Part shown: piece after piece, positions 1-34,646 of the stretch | How the letters are laid out: each line of letters opens with the position of its first letter | How positions within the stretch are numbered: the stretch's first letter is position 1 | NCBI GenBank assembly: GCA_016234495.1 | Contig: JACRBI010000039.1 | Location: 1 to 64,000, forward strand | Length of the DNA stretch: 64,000 nt | Direction of reading: 5' to 3' | DNA from: Chloroflexota bacterium | GTDB lineage: Bacteria > Chloroflexota > Anaerolineae > Anaerolineales > Villigracilaceae | Notes under the pieces: model-generated | Told to the model about the DNA's origin: nothing | Seen by the model: the letters and a program-made list of their open reading frames with translations, nothing else | Databases searched by the model: none | Made by a program: the position numbers and the translations under genes

Positions 1-85
1 GAAAACGAAAACATCCCTTCGTCAGGGATGTTGTGGCGGAGAGGGCGGGATTCGAATGTTATCCCTCGATGGGGCGCGCGAACCT
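1..85. repeat. Tandem partial duplicate of the tRNA-Ser 3' end plus terminator
   Basis: Bases 1-56 are identical to 86-141: terminator hairpin, CCA, acceptor 3' strand and the T-loop side of tRNA-Ser. After base 56 the copy diverges, so the T-stem no longer pairs, and only a short cgcgaacct match returns near 77-85. The copy is a broken tRNA fragment, not a functional tRNA. It may reflect unequal exchange or an old integration at the tRNA 3' end. It may also extend beyond the window start. Confidence 0.85.
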
Positions 86-116
86 GAAAACGAAAACATC
101 CCTTCGTCAGGGATGT
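85..116 (-). terminator. Intrinsic terminator of tRNA-Ser
   Basis: A 7-bp stem, ACATCCC/GGGATGT (96-116), closes a 7-base loop. On the minus strand it is followed by TTTTCGTTTTC. It begins two bases after the encoded CCA of the tRNA. The same hairpin recurs at 11-31 within the upstream partial duplicate. Confidence 0.75.
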
Positions 117-118
117 TG

Positions 119-208
119 TGGCGGAGAGGGCGGGATTCGAACCCGCGAACCTTTGTGGGTTACACGCTTTCCAAGCGTGCGCGCTAAGCCAGACTACGCG
201 ACCTCTCC
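119..208 (-). tRNA. tRNA-Ser (anticodon GGA)
   Basis: Read on the minus strand, the acceptor arm GGAGAGG pairs with CCTCTCC. The anticodon stem CACGC/GCGTG encloses the loop TTGGAAA, giving anticodon GGA. A long variable arm (AACC...GGTT) and a T-arm with GCGGG/CCCGC around TTCGAAT confirm the serine class. Discriminator G and an encoded CCA lie at 119-122. An extended -10 sits upstream and an intrinsic terminator downstream. Confidence 0.95.
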
Positions 209-774
209 ATTTTTGGACGGGCAGATTATACCACAAGGATTTTTACAGCTTTTTGATTTGATCAATGTCGTTTTGTAATTTTGAGTGCAGCGGGGTCATT
301 GTGAATCTATCCCGAAGAAAATACTTCTTGTAACAGAGGCAGGCCTGCTTCCAGGGTGGAGGCGGAGTTATTTCCCCGCTCATTATTAAAAAGTAAAACC
401 CAATAGTACCCCTTGCAAAAAAGAAAGGTGCGAGTAACGTTCTTATCACGGAAGATGAGAGCCCTTCATGATATTTTAATGCAGCCAATGTCGCAGGAGA
501 TTTTGGGGAATCTCGGGGTTGACGCGGCATTCGTTTCATTGCAGAAGCATTGTAATGGGTAACTTTAATGCAAAATGAGCGACTGCCAACTAGCAACTAA
601 TTTTCCAGGATTTTTTAATGGGCTTCTCATGTTGTGCTAAGAAGAGAAGCAGAATTCTTAAAAACGGCAATTATCCAGTTTTTGATCACCCAATTTTCCA
701 GTGGATGGAGGTACTTTTCTGATGCTTTGCGGCAAATTTGAATATGAGCGCCGGGCATGGAACGGAGACTTATT
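209..774. other. Gap between tRNA-Ser and the multiheme cytochrome gene
   Basis: About 560 bases hold the tRNA-Ser promoter at the left edge and, at 622-650, a hairpin with stem GCTTCTC/GAGAAGC lacking a T-run. The open frames here have no start context or protein-like composition. I see no convincing gene. Confidence 0.5.
225..233 (-). promoter_or_regulatory. Extended -10 promoter element of tRNA-Ser
   Basis: On the minus strand the sequence TGGTATAAT is a perfect -10 (TATAAT, 225-230) with an extended TG. It lies 16 bases before the mature tRNA 5' end. No good -35 is visible, as expected for an extended -10 promoter. Confidence 0.6.
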
Positions 775-25749: not shown

Positions 25750-27189
25750 CTACTCTGGGATCAGCGTCCAGCCGGGCAGGGCTTTGAACTTCCAGATGAA
25801 TGTATGGTGGAGCATGAACTTCATCCATGCGCCGCTGGCGCCCATTTCAAGGTGGGATGTGAACAGGTCGCGCCCAAACTCGTTGTCGAACTTTTTGCGG
25901 TCGGGTACGACTGGATGCATGACGATCACGACTGCGTTGCCGTCCCAGAGCGAATCGCCCATGGAGGCAATGCAGGCTGCGACCATGTCTGTCATGCGCT
26001 CGCTGTGAGTCATCTCTCCTTTGGTGATGAGGTCGGCAATATTCAACGCGGTCACGCGCCCGATCACACCGCTGACCATGCCGGTGCGCGGTGGGGCTGG
26101 GGCAATCGCGAGGTTGTTCTTGTTCGTAAACGGCTTGGAGATTGGCCCGGGAGGCGCGAAGGCGATTCCCGCCGCGAATACGTTCTTGTAGGTGGGATTC
26201 TGATATCGGGCAGGCCATGCATCGGGAGTCTGGGCAAGCTCAGGGTAGGGGAGACCGTACTTTCCATCCACGAGCAGGAAGCCGGCAGGGTTGGTCAATT
26301 TCGAGGAAATATCCGAACCATCCTTCCCGATGTATTTGAACGGTTGACCTTTGAATTGTGGAATGAGCATCGAGAAGTCGAAGTCGGTTGTGCCTTCTTC
26401 GCCCTCGTAATTCTGCCAGTGGATTTTGCCATCTTCCACTTTGGTGACGCCGGTCTGCACCTGGTAGCGGATGCCGTGATCGTTGAAGACGGCTTTTATG
26501 AACTCGTCGCTTTTCTGCACGATGCCGTTGCGTTTGACCTGCACGCCGTTGACGCCGAAGTCGCCCAGTGCGGGTTCGTTTGAAAGCCAGAGAATGTCGG
26601 CCTTGTCGCGCAGTCCCTTCTTGACCAAATCCTTGTGGACGTTGACGATGTATTCGAAGGCCGCGCCCTGACAGGTTGCGCCGGGGTGCCCCGTGCCGAT
26701 GACGATCTTTACCTTTTCGCCTTTCTTCATGCGGTCACACAGGGCGAGATAGGCGTCGCGCGTTTTGACGGCGTGCGGCATCGAGCAGATGGAGTGAGTG
26801 AATCCGTTTTCAGGTCCGAGGCCGGGCGTGCCGGCAAAGTTGAGCAACGGTCCCGGCGCGACGACAAGGTAGTCATAGTCAAGGCGGACTTCCCTGCCTG
26901 AGTTGACTTCCTCGCCCAGAACATATTGGTCGCCTTCATCGGGGTGAATTTCTTTGGCCGCCGCATGGACGAATTTGACGTTCATGCGGTCATAGACCGG
27001 CTTGAGCTTGAAGACGGTCTGTTCCGGTTTCATGTGCCCGACTCCCACCCATACCCATGAGGGAACGTATCCGAACACATCGCGGTTGCTGATCACTGTA
27101 ACCTCGTGCTTCCGCCCGATCTTGCTGCCGAGGTACAGCGCCGCAGTATGCCCTGCGAAGCCCGCCCCTATCACAACAACTTTTGCCAT
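25750..27189 (-). CDS. Sulfide:quinone oxidoreductase-like FAD flavoprotein
   Basis: This 479-aa protein begins with the FAD motif VVVIGAGFAGHTAALYLG and has the second dinucleotide segment VIGTGHPGATCQGAAFEY. The SQR-type C-terminal part (NVFAAGIAFAPPGP, then MVSGVIGRVTALNIADLI) is present. Cysteines C135 (SICS) and C173 (ATCQG) match two of the redox cysteines of SQR. The third C-terminal cysteine is not at its usual place. The amphipathic C-terminal end (WMKFMLHHTFIWKFKALPGW) fits a monotopic membrane protein. It probably reduces quinone with sulfide or a related thiol. An AGGAGGAAG ribosome site supports the start. Confidence 0.82.
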   Translation of the reverse strand: MAKVVVIGAGFAGHTAALYLGSKIGRKHEVTVISNRDVFGYVPSWVWVGVGHMKPEQTVFKLKPVYDRMNVKFVHAAAKEIHPDEGDQYVLGEEVNSGREVRLDYDYLVVAPGPLLNFAGTPGLGPENGFTHSICSMPHAVKTRDAYLALCDRMKKGEKVKIVIGTGHPGATCQGAAFEYIVNVHKDLVKKGLRDKADILWLSNEPALGDFGVNGVQVKRNGIVQKSDEFIKAVFNDHGIRYQVQTGVTKVEDGKIHWQNYEGEEGTTDFDFSMLIPQFKGQPFKYIGKDGSDISSKLTNPAGFLLVDGKYGLPYPELAQTPDAWPARYQNPTYKNVFAAGIAFAPPGPISKPFTNKNNLAIAPAPPRTGMVSGVIGRVTALNIADLITKGEMTHSERMTDMVAACIASMGDSLWDGNAVVIVMHPVVPDRKKFDNEFGRDLFTSHLEMGASGAWMKFMLHHTFIWKFKALPGWTLIPE

Positions 27190-27488: not shown

Positions 27489-27911
27489 CTATTTTGGATT
27501 TGGATATGCAGTTTCTGTGCCCGGAGCTTCAACGCCGTCGATGGTGCGAGTTCCGTAAAGCTGCCCGTCAACAGTGATGGTGTACTCGCCTACGCCGCTG
27601 ATGGACTGGTCGGTTCCAGAGAGGCTGTTCCAGGTGAAAGTCAAATGATTACCTTCAAGGGTGCCCGTCCCTTCCTGAATGCCGCCAGAGACAAGCCATT
27701 GGAATTTATATTCATTCGGCTGTGTGCCAGCGCTGATGGTCAGTGTGCCGCCATATTGTTCGCCCGTCGGGTCGAGGGCGTTCAGGGCATACGAGCCGAT
27801 GATGTCCGGCACATTGTCGGCGGGCGCGTCTGCGCCAAGCGGACCGGGTTTGTTGCGTCCGCAAGCCGAGAGGCTGAGGGCTATCAATAAAAATAAAAAG
27901 ATTCGTTTCAT
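27489..27911 (-). CDS. Predicted lipoprotein, unknown function
   Basis: The start at 27911 has AAAGGAA about 6 bases upstream and gives a classic lipoprotein signal (MKRIFLFLLIALSLSACG, lipobox LSAC at residue 18). The 140-aa precursor carries a beta-rich domain (GSYALNALDPTGEQYGGTLTISAG, LEGNHLTFTWNSLSG, GEYTITVDGQLYGTRTI) resembling small lipocalin-like META/DUF domains. It sits between the fused cytochrome gene and the SQR-like gene, so a role at the outer face near these enzymes is possible. The 51-codon upstream extension is rejected. Confidence 0.75.
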   Translation of the reverse strand: MKRIFLFLLIALSLSACGRNKPGPLGADAPADNVPDIIGSYALNALDPTGEQYGGTLTISAGTQPNEYKFQWLVSGGIQEGTGTLEGNHLTFTWNSLSGTDQSISGVGEYTITVDGQLYGTRTIDGVEAPGTETAYPNPK

Positions 27912-27981
27912 GGGTTCCTTTGTTTGATGTGACAGTTGACCGTGGACGATTGACCATATTTTACGGTCTATCGTCAAATTT

Positions 27982-30318
27982 CTATTTTTCCTTCATCGTC
28001 ATCAAAAACGCGATGAGATCGTTAATTTCTTCTTCTGTCAAAATCTTTCCAAAATTTTGAATCATTTGTCCCTCGGGGAAGCCCGGCACGATAAAGGCAT
28101 TCGGCTCCACGATGGATTGATGCAGGTATTCTTCGGCTGTCAGGCCGGGTACGCGGCTGCCTGCGCGATCGGCAATGCCGTAAAACGACGGACCGATGAT
28201 CACTTCATCTTTTTCGAGCGAGTGGCAAATGCGGCAGCCAGCGTTAACTCCTGAAGCCGTCTCGTAGTAAAGCTGCTCGCCCGCCACAGGATCGGGGATG
28301 TGCATGTCCCTGAAATTTATCGTCAGCGATTGCCGCGCGGCGAGGGGAATTGTTTTGTCGAACAACACCTGCGCAAAGCCTGCATCCGGTCTGTCGTACA
28401 TTTTTATTGTAATTCGATGATTGCCGGCAGGCAAATGAACTTGTTTGAAGATCCGCGCGCCCTGGTTGATGCCGTCATCCTGATGCTCGTAGGTTTCATC
28501 GAAGACAGGCTTCCCATCCACTTCCAGCGTGAGGCGTGTCGGATGGTCAAGATCAGGCTCGAGCGTGGGCGGAAGCGCAACGTCGTGAATGGCGTATCCG
28601 CTGTGATGAGTCATCTGAATTGCCAGCACGGCTGAATCCGCGCTGAAAAATTTTGTCGGCCAATCGCTCAACCAGATTTGGAATGCGGTGATAACTGCCA
28701 GCACGCCGATCAGCGGGATGATAAAACGCAGATGCGATTTATTCGGCGCGAATGTAAAAGTATTCGGTTCAGACTTAATTTTTGAGTTGATTGCCCTTCC
28801 AAAATCAGTGGGCGCAGCCCAGGCAGTGTGAACCAGTGGAATAAAGTTCTGCTTAAGTTTGGGCAGGCGTTCACCCATGATGCGCTCGTTTAACCAGACA
28901 TTGCCTTCGCGGTTGGCGCAGTCTTCTGGCGGACAGCCAATGAATTGAACGTCACTCGCGCCCGCTTCAAGAGCCTGCGCCGCAAGGTTGGGATTCGCCA
29001 TCGCAATGCAGGTGAGCGGAACGATGTAAGTGCCAGGGTCGTCGAAGTGTTTGCCTGCGCCGTGCAGGGCGTGACGTTCGCAGGTGAAAACAACTTTAAT
29101 GTTTTTCTGTTCGGCAACTTCACTGAGGGTTGTTTTCCAAAGCGGGTTGAGCGGGGTGTCGCCAAAGGTCAGGGCGTTATCGGGGCAGCTTCCGATGCAT
29201 ACGCCGCAGGAGACGCAGAGATTGGGGTCGATGTCAGCTTGGAATTTGGGGCGCGCTCCATCGGTGCGCGGAATCATTTTGATCGCCAGATATGGGCAGT
29301 CGCGTTCGCAAAGGGTGCAGCCGTCACAATTGGCCAGGTCTACTTTGACAGGTTCGAGTTTCTTTGCGCGCGGCATGATCCACGGCAGGGCGGTAATCAG
29401 GCCGAGGATGAAAAGCAGGACGCTCCAAAAGAGCGCCTGTGGCCCGCGCAGGAAGGCGGGCAGGTAGAATAAATAAAATAAGTCAATCGGAGCCTGCTCC
29501 GCGAGCTGCGTGGCGTTGAGCAAGGGCAACATGCCAAGCGGGAACAGCGCTGATGAAAGCAGGAGCACGAGGGTTGAAATAACCATCCAATATTTTGGGG
29601 GCAGCCATTTTGCGCGGCTCATGCGTTTGAGATGCAGCCACAGAAAATAGGCGGTCAGCGCGGAAAGCCCAACATGCAGAAGGATGACGATCATCATGAA
29701 GACCCAGCCGTTGCCTGCGGCCTCCCCGACGATAAAGTTTACGATAAAGTTTTGTCCGCTTTTGAAATTGCCAAGGATGTTGAAAAGGCTTTGATTCAAG
29801 AGCTGCGTGCGGTTATCCCAGATCAGCCAGTAGCCGGTGATGCCAATCGCCCAGACCACTACTGCCATGCCGACACCTGTGATCCATGCCAGCCAGCGCG
29901 GTCCGCGGAAGCGGTCCTGGAAGAAGGTGCGCCAGCCGTGCAGGAGCGCGAAAATGACCGCCGCGTCTGAAGCGTAACGGTGCATGGCGCGGATGATGCG
30001 CCCGATGAAATTGGCTTCGATCTTGGATACTGCTTCGTAGGAGATTGTGAACCCGAACGGGTAGAACAGGGTCAGGTAGATGCCTGTCAGCAGGATGACC
30101 ACCAGCAGGAAGATGGTGATCGTGCCTGTGTGGTAGAGCGGATTGAAACGCGGGTCGTTGATCAGCCAGTTGAGCGGGGATTCAAGGCGCAGGGAAATGC
30201 TCTCGAAAAAATTGAGCAGTTGTCGGCTGGGAGAATTGAGCCGCGCATCCCAGTCCACGCTGGGGTTGCGCTCCGAGAGCGAATCGGTCAGTTGTTTTTT
30301 TGTCGGGGATGTGGTCAT
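27982..30318 (-). CDS. Fused cytochrome b / 2x[4Fe-4S] ferredoxin / FlpD-like / cytochrome c protein
   Basis: This 778-aa protein joins four redox modules. Residues 60-315 are a cytochrome b membrane domain with heme ligand pairs H113/H127 and H215/H229, both 14 residues apart as in bc1 complexes. Residues 331-378 are a two-cluster ferredoxin (C331-334-337-341 and C368-371-374-378). Residues 408-490 resemble FlpD/MvhD, with C413, C437, C462 and C467 and GCPPEDCANREGN. After a helix (531-549) and a beta domain comes a cytochrome c domain with C695RICH and a likely ligand M752. No Rieske protein is seen nearby. It starts 139 bases after ba3 oxidase subunit I on the same strand. It probably passes electrons from quinol or a cytosolic donor to an external heme. 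The exact reaction is unknown. Confidence 0.85.
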   Translation of the reverse strand: MTTSPTKKQLTDSLSERNPSVDWDARLNSPSRQLLNFFESISLRLESPLNWLINDPRFNPLYHTGTITIFLLVVILLTGIYLTLFYPFGFTISYEAVSKIEANFIGRIIRAMHRYASDAAVIFALLHGWRTFFQDRFRGPRWLAWITGVGMAVVVWAIGITGYWLIWDNRTQLLNQSLFNILGNFKSGQNFIVNFIVGEAAGNGWVFMMIVILLHVGLSALTAYFLWLHLKRMSRAKWLPPKYWMVISTLVLLLSSALFPLGMLPLLNATQLAEQAPIDLFYLFYLPAFLRGPQALFWSVLLFILGLITALPWIMPRAKKLEPVKVDLANCDGCTLCERDCPYLAIKMIPRTDGARPKFQADIDPNLCVSCGVCIGSCPDNALTFGDTPLNPLWKTTLSEVAEQKNIKVVFTCERHALHGAGKHFDDPGTYIVPLTCIAMANPNLAAQALEAGASDVQFIGCPPEDCANREGNVWLNERIMGERLPKLKQNFIPLVHTAWAAPTDFGRAINSKIKSEPNTFTFAPNKSHLRFIIPLIGVLAVITAFQIWLSDWPTKFFSADSAVLAIQMTHHSGYAIHDVALPPTLEPDLDHPTRLTLEVDGKPVFDETYEHQDDGINQGARIFKQVHLPAGNHRITIKMYDRPDAGFAQVLFDKTIPLAARQSLTINFRDMHIPDPVAGEQLYYETASGVNAGCRICHSLEKDEVIIGPSFYGIADRAGSRVPGLTAEEYLHQSIVEPNAFIVPGFPEGQMIQNFGKILTEEEINDLIAFLMTMKEK

Positions 30319-30457: not shown

Positions 30458-32107
30458 TTACCAGACTCTAAAGCCGGGGGAGGTGAGGGCGATGTTCTTG
30501 ATCATTTCGAAGAGGACAGGCCCGTACATGAGGACGATCAGGCCAAGCGCTCCGTAGATCCAGGGAGCCCAACGATCAAGCCAGACCGGGGTGAGGGACA
30601 CATCCTGCATTGATTCGGCAATCGGTACTTCCACTTCTTCTGTAACCTTTTCCTTGTTCAGGGCGGTCATGAGCATGATGGTCAGGTAAATGCTGCCGCT
30701 GATGAAGAGGATCGCGCCGCCAACGCCGACCTGGAAGAGGCGGCTGTTCCATTCAGCAGGAACGTAGGGGGCGAGACCAAGCGGTACGCGGCGCGGGGCT
30801 CCGAGAAGCCCCAGCACGTGCATGGAGTTGGAGAAGATGATCATGCCGATAAACCAGATCCATGATTGGGCGACGGCCCATTTGGGCTGCCAGAGTTTCC
30901 TGCCGGTCAGGTAGGGCAGGAGCCAGTAGGAAATTCCCATGAAGCTGAGGGTGACCGCTGTGGCAACTGTCAGGTGGAAGTGACCGGGGATGAAGGCTGT
31001 GTTGTGCAGAACGAGGTTGACGTTATAGGAAGCATTTGTCAACCCGCCGATACCACCGAAGAAGAACAGGATGCCGGCCAAAAGTTGCGCGGCTACCGAG
31101 GGGTCAGCCCAGTTCAATTTGCCGATCCAGGCGAGCGCGCCCTTGCCGCCGTTCTTGCGCCCCGCGTGTTCGAGGGAGGCGACCACGGTGAAGGCGGTCA
31201 TCATGGAGGGGAAGAATACGCCGAAAGTAAACATCGAGTGCAGGAACTTCCATGCTGGGGAAACACCCGGGTCCACATACTGGTGATGAATGCCGATGGG
31301 GGTTGAGAGTACGAGGAACACCCAGAAAGAAAGGCGGGCGAGTGAGTCGCTGAACATCTTGCCGTTGCCAGCCTGTTTGGGGAGCATGGCGTACCATGAG
31401 AGGTATGCCGGCAGAAGCCAGAAATACACAAGCGGGTGACCGGTGAACCAGAAGTACGTGCGGGCGAGTTGAGGATCAACTCCTTCGATCAAACCGAGGG
31501 ACCACGGCAGAAGCATGGTAAGGATTTCAACAGCCACCCCGAGGGTGCAGATTTGCCAAAGCAAAGCCGTGACAACGCTGGCAAAAGCAATGAAGGGCGA
31601 GGTTACGTTGGGGTTTTCTTTGCGCCAGGCGGCGAAGGTCATGAACAAGCCCCAGCCTTCCACCCAGCTTCCAACAACGACGAGGGTCAGGCCAACATAG
31701 AAAGCCCAGTTTGCCTTAAGCGGAGGGTAAAAGGTGAAGAGCACGGTGGCCTGATTGGCAAGAATCGGGATCGCAGCAGCGACCACGCCGACAACCATCA
31801 ACCAGAAGCCGACCTTGTTCAGGGTCGGATTTTTGAGCGGGCGTTTCAAGCCGAAGATCACGTTGAAGGTCAGGAAGCCCATGATGAAGAAGGTTGTCCA
31901 AACCAGAGCGTTCAAAACGCCGTGAACGGTAAGACCTTGATAGTAGGATTTGATCCAGGGTCTGAGGTAGGGATAAAAATCCCAGCCTGCATGTTCAAAC
32001 GCTTGCAGAGGTCCGAACAAACTGCCGACGGCAAGCGACAGGATGGCCACCAAAAGGTGTGAGCCAATAAATTTCTTTTCGCCAGTGGATAATTGATATT
32101 GTTTCAT
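30458..32107 (-). CDS. cbaA: ba3-type (B-family) heme-copper oxidase subunit I
   Basis: This 549-aa membrane protein has about 13 helices. Key residues are H62 and H378 (low-spin heme), H376 (high-spin heme), H224 with Y228 (CuB and the His-Tyr crosslink in GHPLVYFW) and H274-H275 (CuB). These match Thermus ba3 oxidase in order and spacing and lack A-family D-channel features, so it is a B-family enzyme with high oxygen affinity. It reduces oxygen to water and pumps protons. It follows subunit II by 18 bases in the order IIa-II-I seen in Thermus. Confidence 0.95.
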   Translation of the reverse strand: MKQYQLSTGEKKFIGSHLLVAILSLAVGSLFGPLQAFEHAGWDFYPYLRPWIKSYYQGLTVHGVLNALVWTTFFIMGFLTFNVIFGLKRPLKNPTLNKVGFWLMVVGVVAAAIPILANQATVLFTFYPPLKANWAFYVGLTLVVVGSWVEGWGLFMTFAAWRKENPNVTSPFIAFASVVTALLWQICTLGVAVEILTMLLPWSLGLIEGVDPQLARTYFWFTGHPLVYFWLLPAYLSWYAMLPKQAGNGKMFSDSLARLSFWVFLVLSTPIGIHHQYVDPGVSPAWKFLHSMFTFGVFFPSMMTAFTVVASLEHAGRKNGGKGALAWIGKLNWADPSVAAQLLAGILFFFGGIGGLTNASYNVNLVLHNTAFIPGHFHLTVATAVTLSFMGISYWLLPYLTGRKLWQPKWAVAQSWIWFIGMIIFSNSMHVLGLLGAPRRVPLGLAPYVPAEWNSRLFQVGVGGAILFISGSIYLTIMLMTALNKEKVTEEVEVPIAESMQDVSLTPVWLDRWAPWIYGALGLIVLMYGPVLFEMIKNIALTSPGFRVW

Positions 32108-32125: not shown

Positions 32126-32626
32126 CTACGGCGTAACGATGATTGCGCCGTACATAATGCCATGACCGCTGCCGCAGTATTCGGTACAAATGTAATTGTA
32201 CGTGCCGGGCTTGTCGAATTTAATGGTCAACTTGGAAACCTGGCCGGGCAGAACCATGAAGTTCGCATTGGTATCCTGGATCTTGAACCCATGCTGAACA
32301 TCAGAGGATGTCACATAGAAGGATACGCTGGAACCAGCCGGAATTGTGATTTCCTTGGGCAGGTATTCCCAGGTCGGTACGGCGCGAGCCAAAATATAGG
32401 CGTCATATTTGCCGGGCGCCACCTCGCGCAGGCCAGGCGATGACCAGGGGCTGTTGGGGTCTGTGCCCACTGTCTTGGGGTCAACACGTTGTTCGGGCGC
32501 TGGCACTTGAATACCCATGCCGAAAGCGGACACGCTGACGGCGGTCGCAAACAACACGAGCAAGACCGCAGTGAACATCATCCAATTGCGCTCGTATCGG
32601 TCAATGTGTATTTTATTGGCGCTCAT
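32126..32626 (-). CDS. cbaB: ba3-type cytochrome c oxidase subunit II (CuA)
   Basis: This 166-aa protein has one N-terminal helix (about 15-37) and a cupredoxin domain. CuA ligands are visible: the histidine in DVQHGF and the cluster CTEYCGSGHGIMYG (Cys, Cys, His, Met). The short single-helix form is typical of ba3 enzymes. It accepts electrons from cytochrome c or another external donor. Its ATG overlaps the stop of the IIa gene (ATGA), indicating coupled translation. Confidence 0.95.
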   Translation of the reverse strand: MSANKIHIDRYERNWMMFTAVLLVLFATAVSVSAFGMGIQVPAPEQRVDPKTVGTDPNSPWSSPGLREVAPGKYDAYILARAVPTWEYLPKEITIPAGSSVSFYVTSSDVQHGFKIQDTNANFMVLPGQVSKLTIKFDKPGTYNYICTEYCGSGHGIMYGAIIVTP

Positions 32627-32870: not shown

Positions 32871-33461
32871 TTATTGATCTAACATGTACTTCAAATCACC
32901 GGCGATCTCATCCACTGTCACGCCGAATGGAAATACCAATTTCAAATAGCCTTCACGGTCCAACACAAGAAGCGTGGCGGTGTGATCGATCAAATAACTC
33001 TCCGCCGTGTTCCCCGGGCTTTTTTCGTAAAATATGCCGTAGAGGGATGTGACCTCTTCCAACTTTTCATTGGAGCCTGTAATGCCAATAAAGGACGGGT
33101 GAAAGTGGCCGACATACTCTGCCAGTTTTTGCGGAGTATCCCGCTCAGGGTCAACCGAGATCATGATGGTCTGGATCTGGCTGGCCTTGTCCTCACCCAA
33201 TTTTCTCAAGGCCTGCCCGACATTGGCAAGTGTGGCCGGGCAGACATCCGGGCAGAAGGTGTACCCGAAATAAACGAGCACCAGCTTGCCGCGGAAATCA
33301 CTCAGCGAAACATCGCCGCTAGCGCTGGTCAGTGTAAAGTTAAAGGATGGCTGCGGTGATTGGATCACCGTGCCGCTAAATGTATGCGGACGGAAGAAAT
33401 AAAATCCCGCTGCCAAACCAAGCATTATGACAAAAACGCTGAGGATGATTTTTATTTTCAT
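32871..33461 (-). CDS. SCO1/SenC-type copper chaperone
   Basis: This 196-aa protein has an N-terminal anchor helix (about 5-23) and a thioredoxin-like domain. CPDVC and the distant histidine in YLIDHTA form the complete copper site, and SVDPERDTP is the family signature. It delivers copper to the CuA centre of the oxidase encoded just downstream. It lies 10 bases after the second SCO gene and 110 bases before the IIa gene. Confidence 0.94.
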   Translation of the reverse strand: MKIKIILSVFVIMLGLAAGFYFFRPHTFSGTVIQSPQPSFNFTLTSASGDVSLSDFRGKLVLVYFGYTFCPDVCPATLANVGQALRKLGEDKASQIQTIMISVDPERDTPQKLAEYVGHFHPSFIGITGSNEKLEEVTSLYGIFYEKSPGNTAESYLIDHTATLLVLDREGYLKLVFPFGVTVDEIAGDLKYMLDQ

Positions 33462-33471
33462 GTTGAATTCT

Positions 33472-34146
33472 TTATGGCGCGTAGCACAGGAACAAATGCG
33501 CGGCCTCGTAGGCTAGTTTTGCCGAGCCTGTGCTGTTGCGGACTTCATCTGCTAACACGCCAAAATGACGAAGGATGCGGTCTGCGTTGGAGACTTCTGT
33601 CGAGTAGCGGTATTCGGCGCGGACAATACCCCAGCCGTCCACAAGTACGAAGGAAGGGTCAAATGCAAAACTGCCATTGCCTTTGTCTTCGTAATAGGTT
33701 TCAAATCCCGAGCCGATGATGGTTTTGAGCAGGGATTTGTTGGTGGTGGTGGCAAAACTCCAATGCTGGGTGTCGGCGTTGAGTGAACTCGCGTAGGCTT
33801 CCAGCGTTTCTGCCGTGTCGCGGTCGGGGTCAAAGGAGATGGTGACGTATGCAACTTCTATGCCGTCAAGTTCCACTTCATCTAAACGGGATTGTATCTC
33901 CTTGATGGTCTCGTTGATCTCATAGCAGGGAGCGGGGCAATTGGTGTACATGAAAGTGTAAAGCACGAATTTTCCGCGCAGGTCTTCGCTGGTAAGGCGT
34001 TCATTATTTTGATTTGTCAGGCTGAAGGCGGGTGATAACTGCATTCGCGGCAAAACCTGGATTGGTTGGAATATCTTGAAGGCAAATGCTGAAACAACAA
34101 TCAGCGCCAGCAGGCCGTACACTCCGTTTAAAAGGTACTTGTTCAT
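33472..34146 (-). CDS. SCO-like protein with altered copper site
   Basis: This 224-aa protein has an anchor helix (about 9-25), the thioredoxin-like motif CPAPC and the SCO signature SFDPDRDT. The usual copper-binding histidine is replaced: the aligned segment reads FAFDPSFVLVDGWG, with Pro where the neighbour has DHTA. It could act as a thiol reductase for CuA cysteines instead of a copper carrier, which is an inference. Its ATG overlaps the Rrf2 gene stop by 4 bases. Confidence 0.88.
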   Translation of the reverse strand: MNKYLLNGVYGLLALIVVSAFAFKIFQPIQVLPRMQLSPAFSLTNQNNERLTSEDLRGKFVLYTFMYTNCPAPCYEINETIKEIQSRLDEVELDGIEVAYVTISFDPDRDTAETLEAYASSLNADTQHWSFATTTNKSLLKTIIGSGFETYYEDKGNGSFAFDPSFVLVDGWGIVRAEYRYSTEVSNADRILRHFGVLADEVRNSTGSAKLAYEAAHLFLCYAP

Positions 34147-34646
34147 GCGGGGACATTCGAGGTGAGTAAAAGGTCACTCGTGACAGAATCAGGTATCAGG
34201 GCGGATGAGGCGTTTACCGTCAGGTTGGATTCGATCAACTGGCCTTCTTCCACCAGTTGTTGAAAGGTGATACGGGACATCTCCTCGCGAAGCAGATTCT
34301 TTAATCGCACCCATTGACAGTGGACAGGGCATTTTTTTTCAAAGGGACATTCGCCCGGTTTTAGGATGCAATCGGAGAGGTAAAGCTCGCCTTCAAAGTG
34401 CTCCACGACTTGAAGCAGGGTGATCTGGCGGGGTTCGTGAGCGAGGGTGATGCCTCCGTCGCGGCCAGCCTGGGTATGAATGAAGCCGCCGCCTGCCAGC
34501 TCGGCGACGATGCGCTGGAGAAGCGAGGGGGGGATGAGCATTTCGCGGCCAATTTCGGAGGTGGGCACGCGGCTGCCTTTGGCCTTTTTGGAAAGGGAAA
34601 GTATCACTCTAACGGCGTAATCGGTTTGTCGGTTTATTCGAAGCAT
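34143..34646 (-). CDS. Rrf2-family Fe-S transcription regulator
   Basis: This 167-aa protein has the Rrf2 winged helix at the N-terminus (LRINRQTDYAVRVILSLS, then PTSEIGREMLIPPSLLQRIVAEL and GGFIHTQAGRDGGITLA). A cysteine cluster C-x6-C-x5-C-x3-C (CILKPGECPFEKKCPVHC) resembles the NsrR/IscR cluster site. It probably senses NO, oxygen or Fe-S status. As first gene of the SCO-oxidase operon it is likely an autoregulator of respiration. A 16-bp palindrome lies about 90 bases upstream. Confidence 0.92.
   Translation of the reverse strand: MLRINRQTDYAVRVILSLSKKAKGSRVPTSEIGREMLIPPSLLQRIVAELAGGGFIHTQAGRDGGITLAHEPRQITLLQVVEHFEGELYLSDCILKPGECPFEKKCPVHCQWVRLKNLLREEMSRITFQQLVEEGQLIESNLTVNASSALIPDSVTSDLLLTSNVPA

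Follow-up and report, generated by a model that had tools for sequence, protein, structure and literature searches.

The locus analysed here raises the question of where a single polypeptide that combines a cytochrome b, an Fe-S module of the HdrA2/MvhD kind and a cytochrome c takes its electrons from, and to what it delivers them beside a ba3-type oxidase. In the window (the whole 64,000-nucleotide stretch of DNA that was analysed), the gene occupies 27982..30318 on the minus strand, a strand that the preliminary description had not given; it starts with ATG, contains zero internal stops and encodes a 778-residue cytochrome b-2x[4Fe-4S]-FlpD-TM helix-beta-sandwich-cytochrome c fusion. One intact frame thus joins cytochrome b, two ferredoxin motifs, an FlpD-like domain and cytochrome c, as had been described, and the residues then listed (H113, H127, H215 and H229, the ferredoxin and FlpD cysteines and C695-R-I-C698-H699) all lie at the positions given. 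Along the chain, and always on the minus strand, cytochrome b helices A-F (residues 55-321; 29356..30156), delimited by Pfam, the bc1 fold match and conservation, are followed by two 4-Cys ferredoxin motifs in the cytoplasmic F-G loop (residues 325-385; 29164..29346; C331/334/337/341 and C368/371/374/378) and by an FlpD/MvhD-like domain (residues 405-482; 28873..29106; C413, C437, C462 and C467). A TM helix that overlays helix G of bc1 cytochrome b (residues 527-551; 28666..28740) then leads to an external beta-sandwich without a Pfam family above cut-off (residues 553-676; 28291..28662) and to the cytochrome c (residues 677-778; 27985..28290), with CRICH at 695-699 and M752 as the distal Met. 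The heme b ligands pair as H113/H215 and H127/H229; an invariant D279 lies in the ef loop and a near-invariant H63 on helix A.

The domain models accept both the cytochrome b and the FlpD assignments. Four Pfam families match above their gathering cut-offs, namely Cytochrome_B (residues 57-231, 4e-13), Fer4_7 (330-382, 9.5e-9), FlpD (427-480, 7.8e-8) and Cytochrom_C (680-776, 7.9e-6), and among NCBIfam models residues 325-480 match the ferredoxin-MvhD module at the C-terminus of HdrA2 (5.4e-15), and cytochrome b6 and ExtP models match towards the N-terminus. None of the NCBIfam models listed for the fusion comes near its own cut-off, and therefore no curated family covers the protein. The Pfam search gave neither the thioredoxin reductase-like flavin domain of HdrA (no Pyr_redox match) nor the NrfD domain of the membrane subunits of alternative complex III. 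In the PDB, the cytochrome c domain matches the corresponding domain in subunit II of a caa3-type oxidase (1w2l, 1.7e-6).

The predicted structure places these domains on two sides of the membrane. The AlphaFold2 model (62-sequence alignment) has a pLDDT of 90.6 and a pTM of 0.86, and its residues 55-321 match bc1-type cytochrome b chains with Z 19-22 over about 260 residues at 3.1-4.7 A; since many of these structural alignments reach residue 558 (model 55..558 against bc1 25..343), the TM helix at 527-551 falls on helix G. In the standard cytochrome b topology the N-terminus is cytoplasmic, and a helix count from there leaves the F-G insertion in the cytoplasm and the beta-sandwich with the cytochrome c on the outer side; the positive-charge counts of the D-E and F-insert loops fit this arrangement. 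The earlier proposal of a cytosolic Fe-S/FlpD side and an external heme thus agrees with the predicted topology. The likeness to cytochrome b extends to hhalign, in which residues 62-284 align with the bc cytochrome b of the same genome (E 6.6e-14). That alignment sets KAPWYF of the bc protein opposite QAPIDLFY of the fusion: by hhalign and conservation, the PEWY-type Qo motif is absent and PIDLFY, with the invariant D279, stands in its place. A phmmer alignment places H63 (window about 30130-30132) opposite the Cys of the cytochrome b6 'YC-GG' motif. Cys35 of cytochrome b6 carries heme c_n in b6f, and our guess is that H63 could be a ligand of an extra inner heme or of a quinone.

A fusion of this kind might have arisen from a sequencing error joining separate genes. 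We scanned 84,980 species genomes, found 172 loci with relatives and retained the best 80; among these, the same fusion turns up at 50 further loci whose records were assembled independently, which rules out a sequencing or assembly misjoin. The family alignment comprises 84 members, 51 fused to cytochrome c and 33 unfused, and the four heme-b His, the eight ferredoxin Cys and D279 are invariant in 84/84. The FlpD domain retains its four cysteines in 77 of the 84 sequences, the remaining seven being genus- or family-level paralogues; H63 is kept in 81, and the other three read HY for YH. CxxCH is present in 51/51 fused members and the distal Met in 47. We regard binding of the b hemes and the [4Fe-4S] clusters as close to certain, and a cluster in the FlpD domain as highly probable. 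In a quick tree the fused members form a single clade (SH-aLRT 100) that spans Chloroflexota and Acidimicrobiia, a topology compatible with one origin of the fusion. The family is patchy: at the thresholds used, a match was found in 12/400 Chloroflexota genomes and in 3/396 genomes of the phylum of one carrier recorded as Acidimicrobiia (G428).

The gene neighbourhood points to the partner on the outer side. Upstream of the fusion, on the same strand, lie the genes for subunit I of a ba3-type heme-copper oxidase (30458..32107; COX1 9.7e-93; GHPLVYFWLLPAY), for subunit II with its CuA site CTEYCGSGHGIM (32126..32626), for two SCO1/SenC-type proteins, the first annotated as a copper chaperone (32871..33461 and 33472..34146), and for an Rrf2-family regulator that heads the conserved cluster (34143..34646). 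The COX1 fold, the HPxVY active-site Tyr and the CuA subunit II identify the oxidase as a B-family ba3 enzyme. The order Rrf2-SCO-SCO-ba3 II-ba3 I-fusion-lipoprotein is repeated across the fused clade, and ba3 subunit I lies at most 300 bp upstream of the fusion in 46/50 other fused loci, so that the adjacency to a ba3 oxidase noted at the outset proved very strong. The last gene of this order encodes a small LIC10280-like lipoprotein (27489..27977, minus strand; below the model cut-off), conserved directly after the fusion gene. Beyond it, an SQR-like FAD oxidoreductase gene (25750..27189, minus strand) adjoins the fusion cluster in some relatives; in the window the two are set apart by a stem resembling a terminator (27255-27220), which suggests that the SQR-like gene is a separate transcript. 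The Rrf2 regulator bears a cysteine cluster, CILKPGECPFEKKC, which suggests Fe-S, O2 or NO control of the ba3 cluster. Of 25 loci of the sister group, whose members are unfused, 12 have a distinct cytochrome c gene immediately upstream and 13 have ba3 I among the genes that precede the unfused member; the cytochrome c gene is flanked by those for ba3 subunit I and for the b/Fe-S protein.

Three observations, namely the linkage to ba3, the invariance of the ligands and the cytochrome c as a Rosetta stone, lead us to consider it most likely, with a probability of roughly 0.6, that the fusion is an extra electron-transfer unit built on cytochrome b, without Rieske and dedicated to a heme-copper oxidase of the CuA type. 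Its core would be a bis-heme cytochrome b with helices A-G, interrupted on the side of the cytoplasm, close to heme bH, by an HdrA2/MvhD-like Fe-S arm that would hold two [4Fe-4S] clusters and probably one [2Fe-2S] cluster. Electrons, supplied by menaquinol and/or by a cytosolic donor docked at the FlpD domain, would travel along the hemes b, reach the cytochrome c tethered outside and enter the ba3 oxidase at its CuA. Cofactor occupancy, quinone binding, the identity of the partners and the direction of electron flow are parts of this model that we infer. Reduction of ba3 by the cytochrome c of the fusion appears very likely. The match of the model to bc1 cytochrome b, the single clade of fused members and the likeness of the cytochrome c domain to that of a caa3 subunit II (1w2l) all favour the electron-transfer reading.

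The preliminary description had gone further and suggested that the complex replaces a Rieske bc complex. As a general statement this is rejected, because a marker of bc1 and/or alternative complex III occurs in 43/45 fusion-carrying genomes, the only two with neither being partial MAGs (G414 and G430). The genome of the window itself has both: cytochrome b and Rieske genes are neighbours on another contig than the fusion (Rieske matches on C28 and C45, none on the fusion contig C25), and a complete-looking alternative complex III operon, ActA- to ActE-like, lies at L122:3260-10002 (contig C24). The suggested survey of whether carriers lack a Rieske complex gave a bc1-type cytochrome b (E <= 1e-20) in 36/45, a cytochrome b match alone not being proof of a working Rieske complex, and ActD in 24/45. 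Fused clusters in general contain no Rieske gene, and several relatives have a split Rieske bc complex within the same cluster. At L098:968-12028, genes for ba3, cytochrome c, a GltD-like protein, petB-like and petD-like proteins, Rieske and a triheme cytochrome c precede an unfused member, and similar clusters occur in L061, L082, L090, L096, L099 and L105-L107. The GltD-like FAD/Fe-S protein of these Rieske clusters has about 670-690 residues, and the combination of ba3, GltD-like and split Rieske bc genes recalls the anammox Rieske/cytochrome b complexes with NAD(P) oxidoreductase.

These clusters bear on the possibility that the fusion bifurcates quinol electrons independently of Rieske: menaquinol would be oxidized on the outside, one electron being drawn by O2 reduction at ba3 through the tethered cytochrome c and the other passing through the hemes b to a low-potential Fe-S/FlpD arm and on to ferredoxin or NAD(P)+. 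The complete cytochrome b fold including the cd and ef regions, the invariant acidic D279 in the ef loop, the predicted position of the Fe-S arm beside the inner side and the GltD-like FAD/Fe-S genes found with Rieske bc in related clusters are in keeping with such a scheme, and the idea has a published precedent in the anammox complexes with NAD(P) oxidoreductase (PMC12954380). It is nevertheless improbable in our estimation, as the fusion cluster lacks a Rieske protein and the PEWY motif is altered. To our knowledge, there is no bifurcation at a Qo site lacking a Rieske partner. Inward bifurcating flow would conserve energy, but would have to do so without Rieske.

On the cytosolic side, FlpD had drawn attention to hydrogenase-heterodisulfide systems. 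A dehydrogenase adaptor can be envisaged in which FlpD is the docking site of an MvhAG/FdhAB-like enzyme or of HdrA, so that H2 or formate oxidation feeds ba3 directly; the FlpD/HdrA2-like module fits, as do the NiFe hydrogenase match in most carriers and the HdrC-HdrB-HdrA-FlpD-MvhGA-like genes of the genome studied here (L120:2639-9873, contig C11). That cluster is, however, already served by a standalone FlpD, and two carriers that are 96-98% complete (G392 and G120) have neither a NiFe hydrogenase match nor any FlpD besides the fusion. An obligatory Mvh hydrogenase partner is thereby excluded, the Mvh-type link first envisaged is not obligatory, and we regard the adaptor as very unlikely. 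Because of the same two genomes, a cytosolic partner, if any, is probably general, such as ferredoxin or an NAD(P)H enzyme. In the genome of the window, the soluble Hdr-Mvh-type system coexists with ba3 and other heme-copper enzymes.

One of these other enzymes is linked to a paralogue of the fusion, a 684-residue protein without the FlpD cysteines and without cytochrome c, encoded at L022:7045-14695 (contig C38) together with a COX1 protein, a CuA subunit CNEYCDVGHHTM, a DsbD_2 protein and a Cu P-type ATPase. In the COX1 protein GHPAQQ replaces GHPxVY. An eNOR has been described as lacking the active-site Tyr and having a Gln (Gln-323) (PMC8756737), and since the Tyr is missing and a Gln is present here, the neighbour of the paralogue is likely an eNOR-like NO reductase. 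The culturable Chloroflexota species Ardenticatena maritima is reported to combine an eNOR with a bc complex and a B-family oxidase (PMC4653789). Several genomes of the family repeat this pairing of paralogue and eNOR-like cluster. The linkage of the paralogue to another CuA-type heme-copper enzyme favours the electron-transfer reading.

The same cluster, with its heme-copper enzyme, DsbD_2/SafE-type protein and Cu P-type ATPase, resembles ccoGHIS-type clusters and brings in a further possibility, a CcoG-like assembly factor that would carry cytosolic electrons outward and reduce Cu(II) for CuA/CuB insertion while its periplasmic part docks copper chaperones. The two SCO genes of the fusion cluster would suit such a function, the two [4Fe-4S] motifs with an external beta-sandwich recall CcoG, and FixG_C gave no match in 11/12 genomes searched. 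Yet the beta-sandwich gave no sequence match to FixG_C (PF11614) up to E 5; folded alone, it yields a confident model with generic beta-sandwich matches only (best Z 7.8, below the meaningful level of the tool). A pure copper reductase would not be expected to keep its b-heme ligands invariant or to conserve a tethered cytochrome c, and the sister group has its cytochrome c encoded as a subunit of its own. We therefore judge an assembly role unlikely, although, as the main rival, slightly less so than bifurcation.

The electron-transfer reading is in turn weakened by several observations: PEWY is altered to PIDLFY with its invariant D279, carriers own further quinol:cytochrome c reductases, no gene for a cytosolic partner is a regular neighbour, the SCO proteins and the Cu-ATPase of the paralogue also fit an assembly role, and electrons flowing from a cytosolic donor straight out to cytochrome c would dissipate energy. 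Such outward flow is chemically simple, and might serve O2 removal. The chances that the Fe-S arm is the point of electron entry are about even; that it is an exit is doubtful, and that it is neither is more doubtful still. Of the earlier proposal of a quinol- or donor-oxidising complex beside ba3, the oxidase link thus stands, and the replacement of bc is not supported.

We found no paper in the open-licence literature that describes the fusion as a family, a search for cytochrome b with FlpD giving incidental mentions only. Table A3 of PMC8756737 lists one protein, RME88945.1, with cytochrome b6, DMSOR_beta-like, FlpD and cytochrome c domains, as a domain list without function or cluster. 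The fusion thus looks like an undescribed electron-transfer unit serving ba3 in many uncultured Chloroflexota and some Acidimicrobiia. If this is true, a respiratory module made of one chain, and widely distributed, connects an Fe-S arm in the cytosol with the core of a cytochrome b and with the cytochrome c of an oxidase, in aerobically respiring members of lineages usually taken for fermenters, and it offers a testable case of how HdrA/MvhD-type electron modules became joined to aerobic respiration and of whether a cytochrome b works without a Rieske protein.

Several known systems share parts of this design. Like CcoG/FixG/RdxA, the fusion is a membrane protein with two [4Fe-4S] motifs and an external beta-sandwich encoded in oxidase clusters, but it adds b hemes and a cytochrome c and has no FixG_C match. 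With the HdrA2 C-terminal ferredoxin-MvhD module and MvhD/FlpD/VhuD it shares two 4-Cys motifs followed by an FlpD domain; unlike HdrA2, it lacks the HdrA flavin domain, and the module is embedded in a membrane cytochrome b. The anammox complexes (PMC12954380) likewise combine cytochrome b with an electron path through Fe-S centres in the cytoplasm and with cytochromes c on the outside, but they employ Rieske and separate FAD/NAD(P) subunits, whereas the fusion is a single chain without flavin. Finally, the fold with helices A-G, the two bis-His b hemes and the cd and ef elements are those of bc1/b6f cytochrome b, from which the fusion differs in the lack of Rieske in its cluster, the replaced PEWY, its own cytochrome c and the large Fe-S/FlpD insertion in the F-G loop; we accordingly rate it as a kind of cytochrome b and not as a member of complex III.
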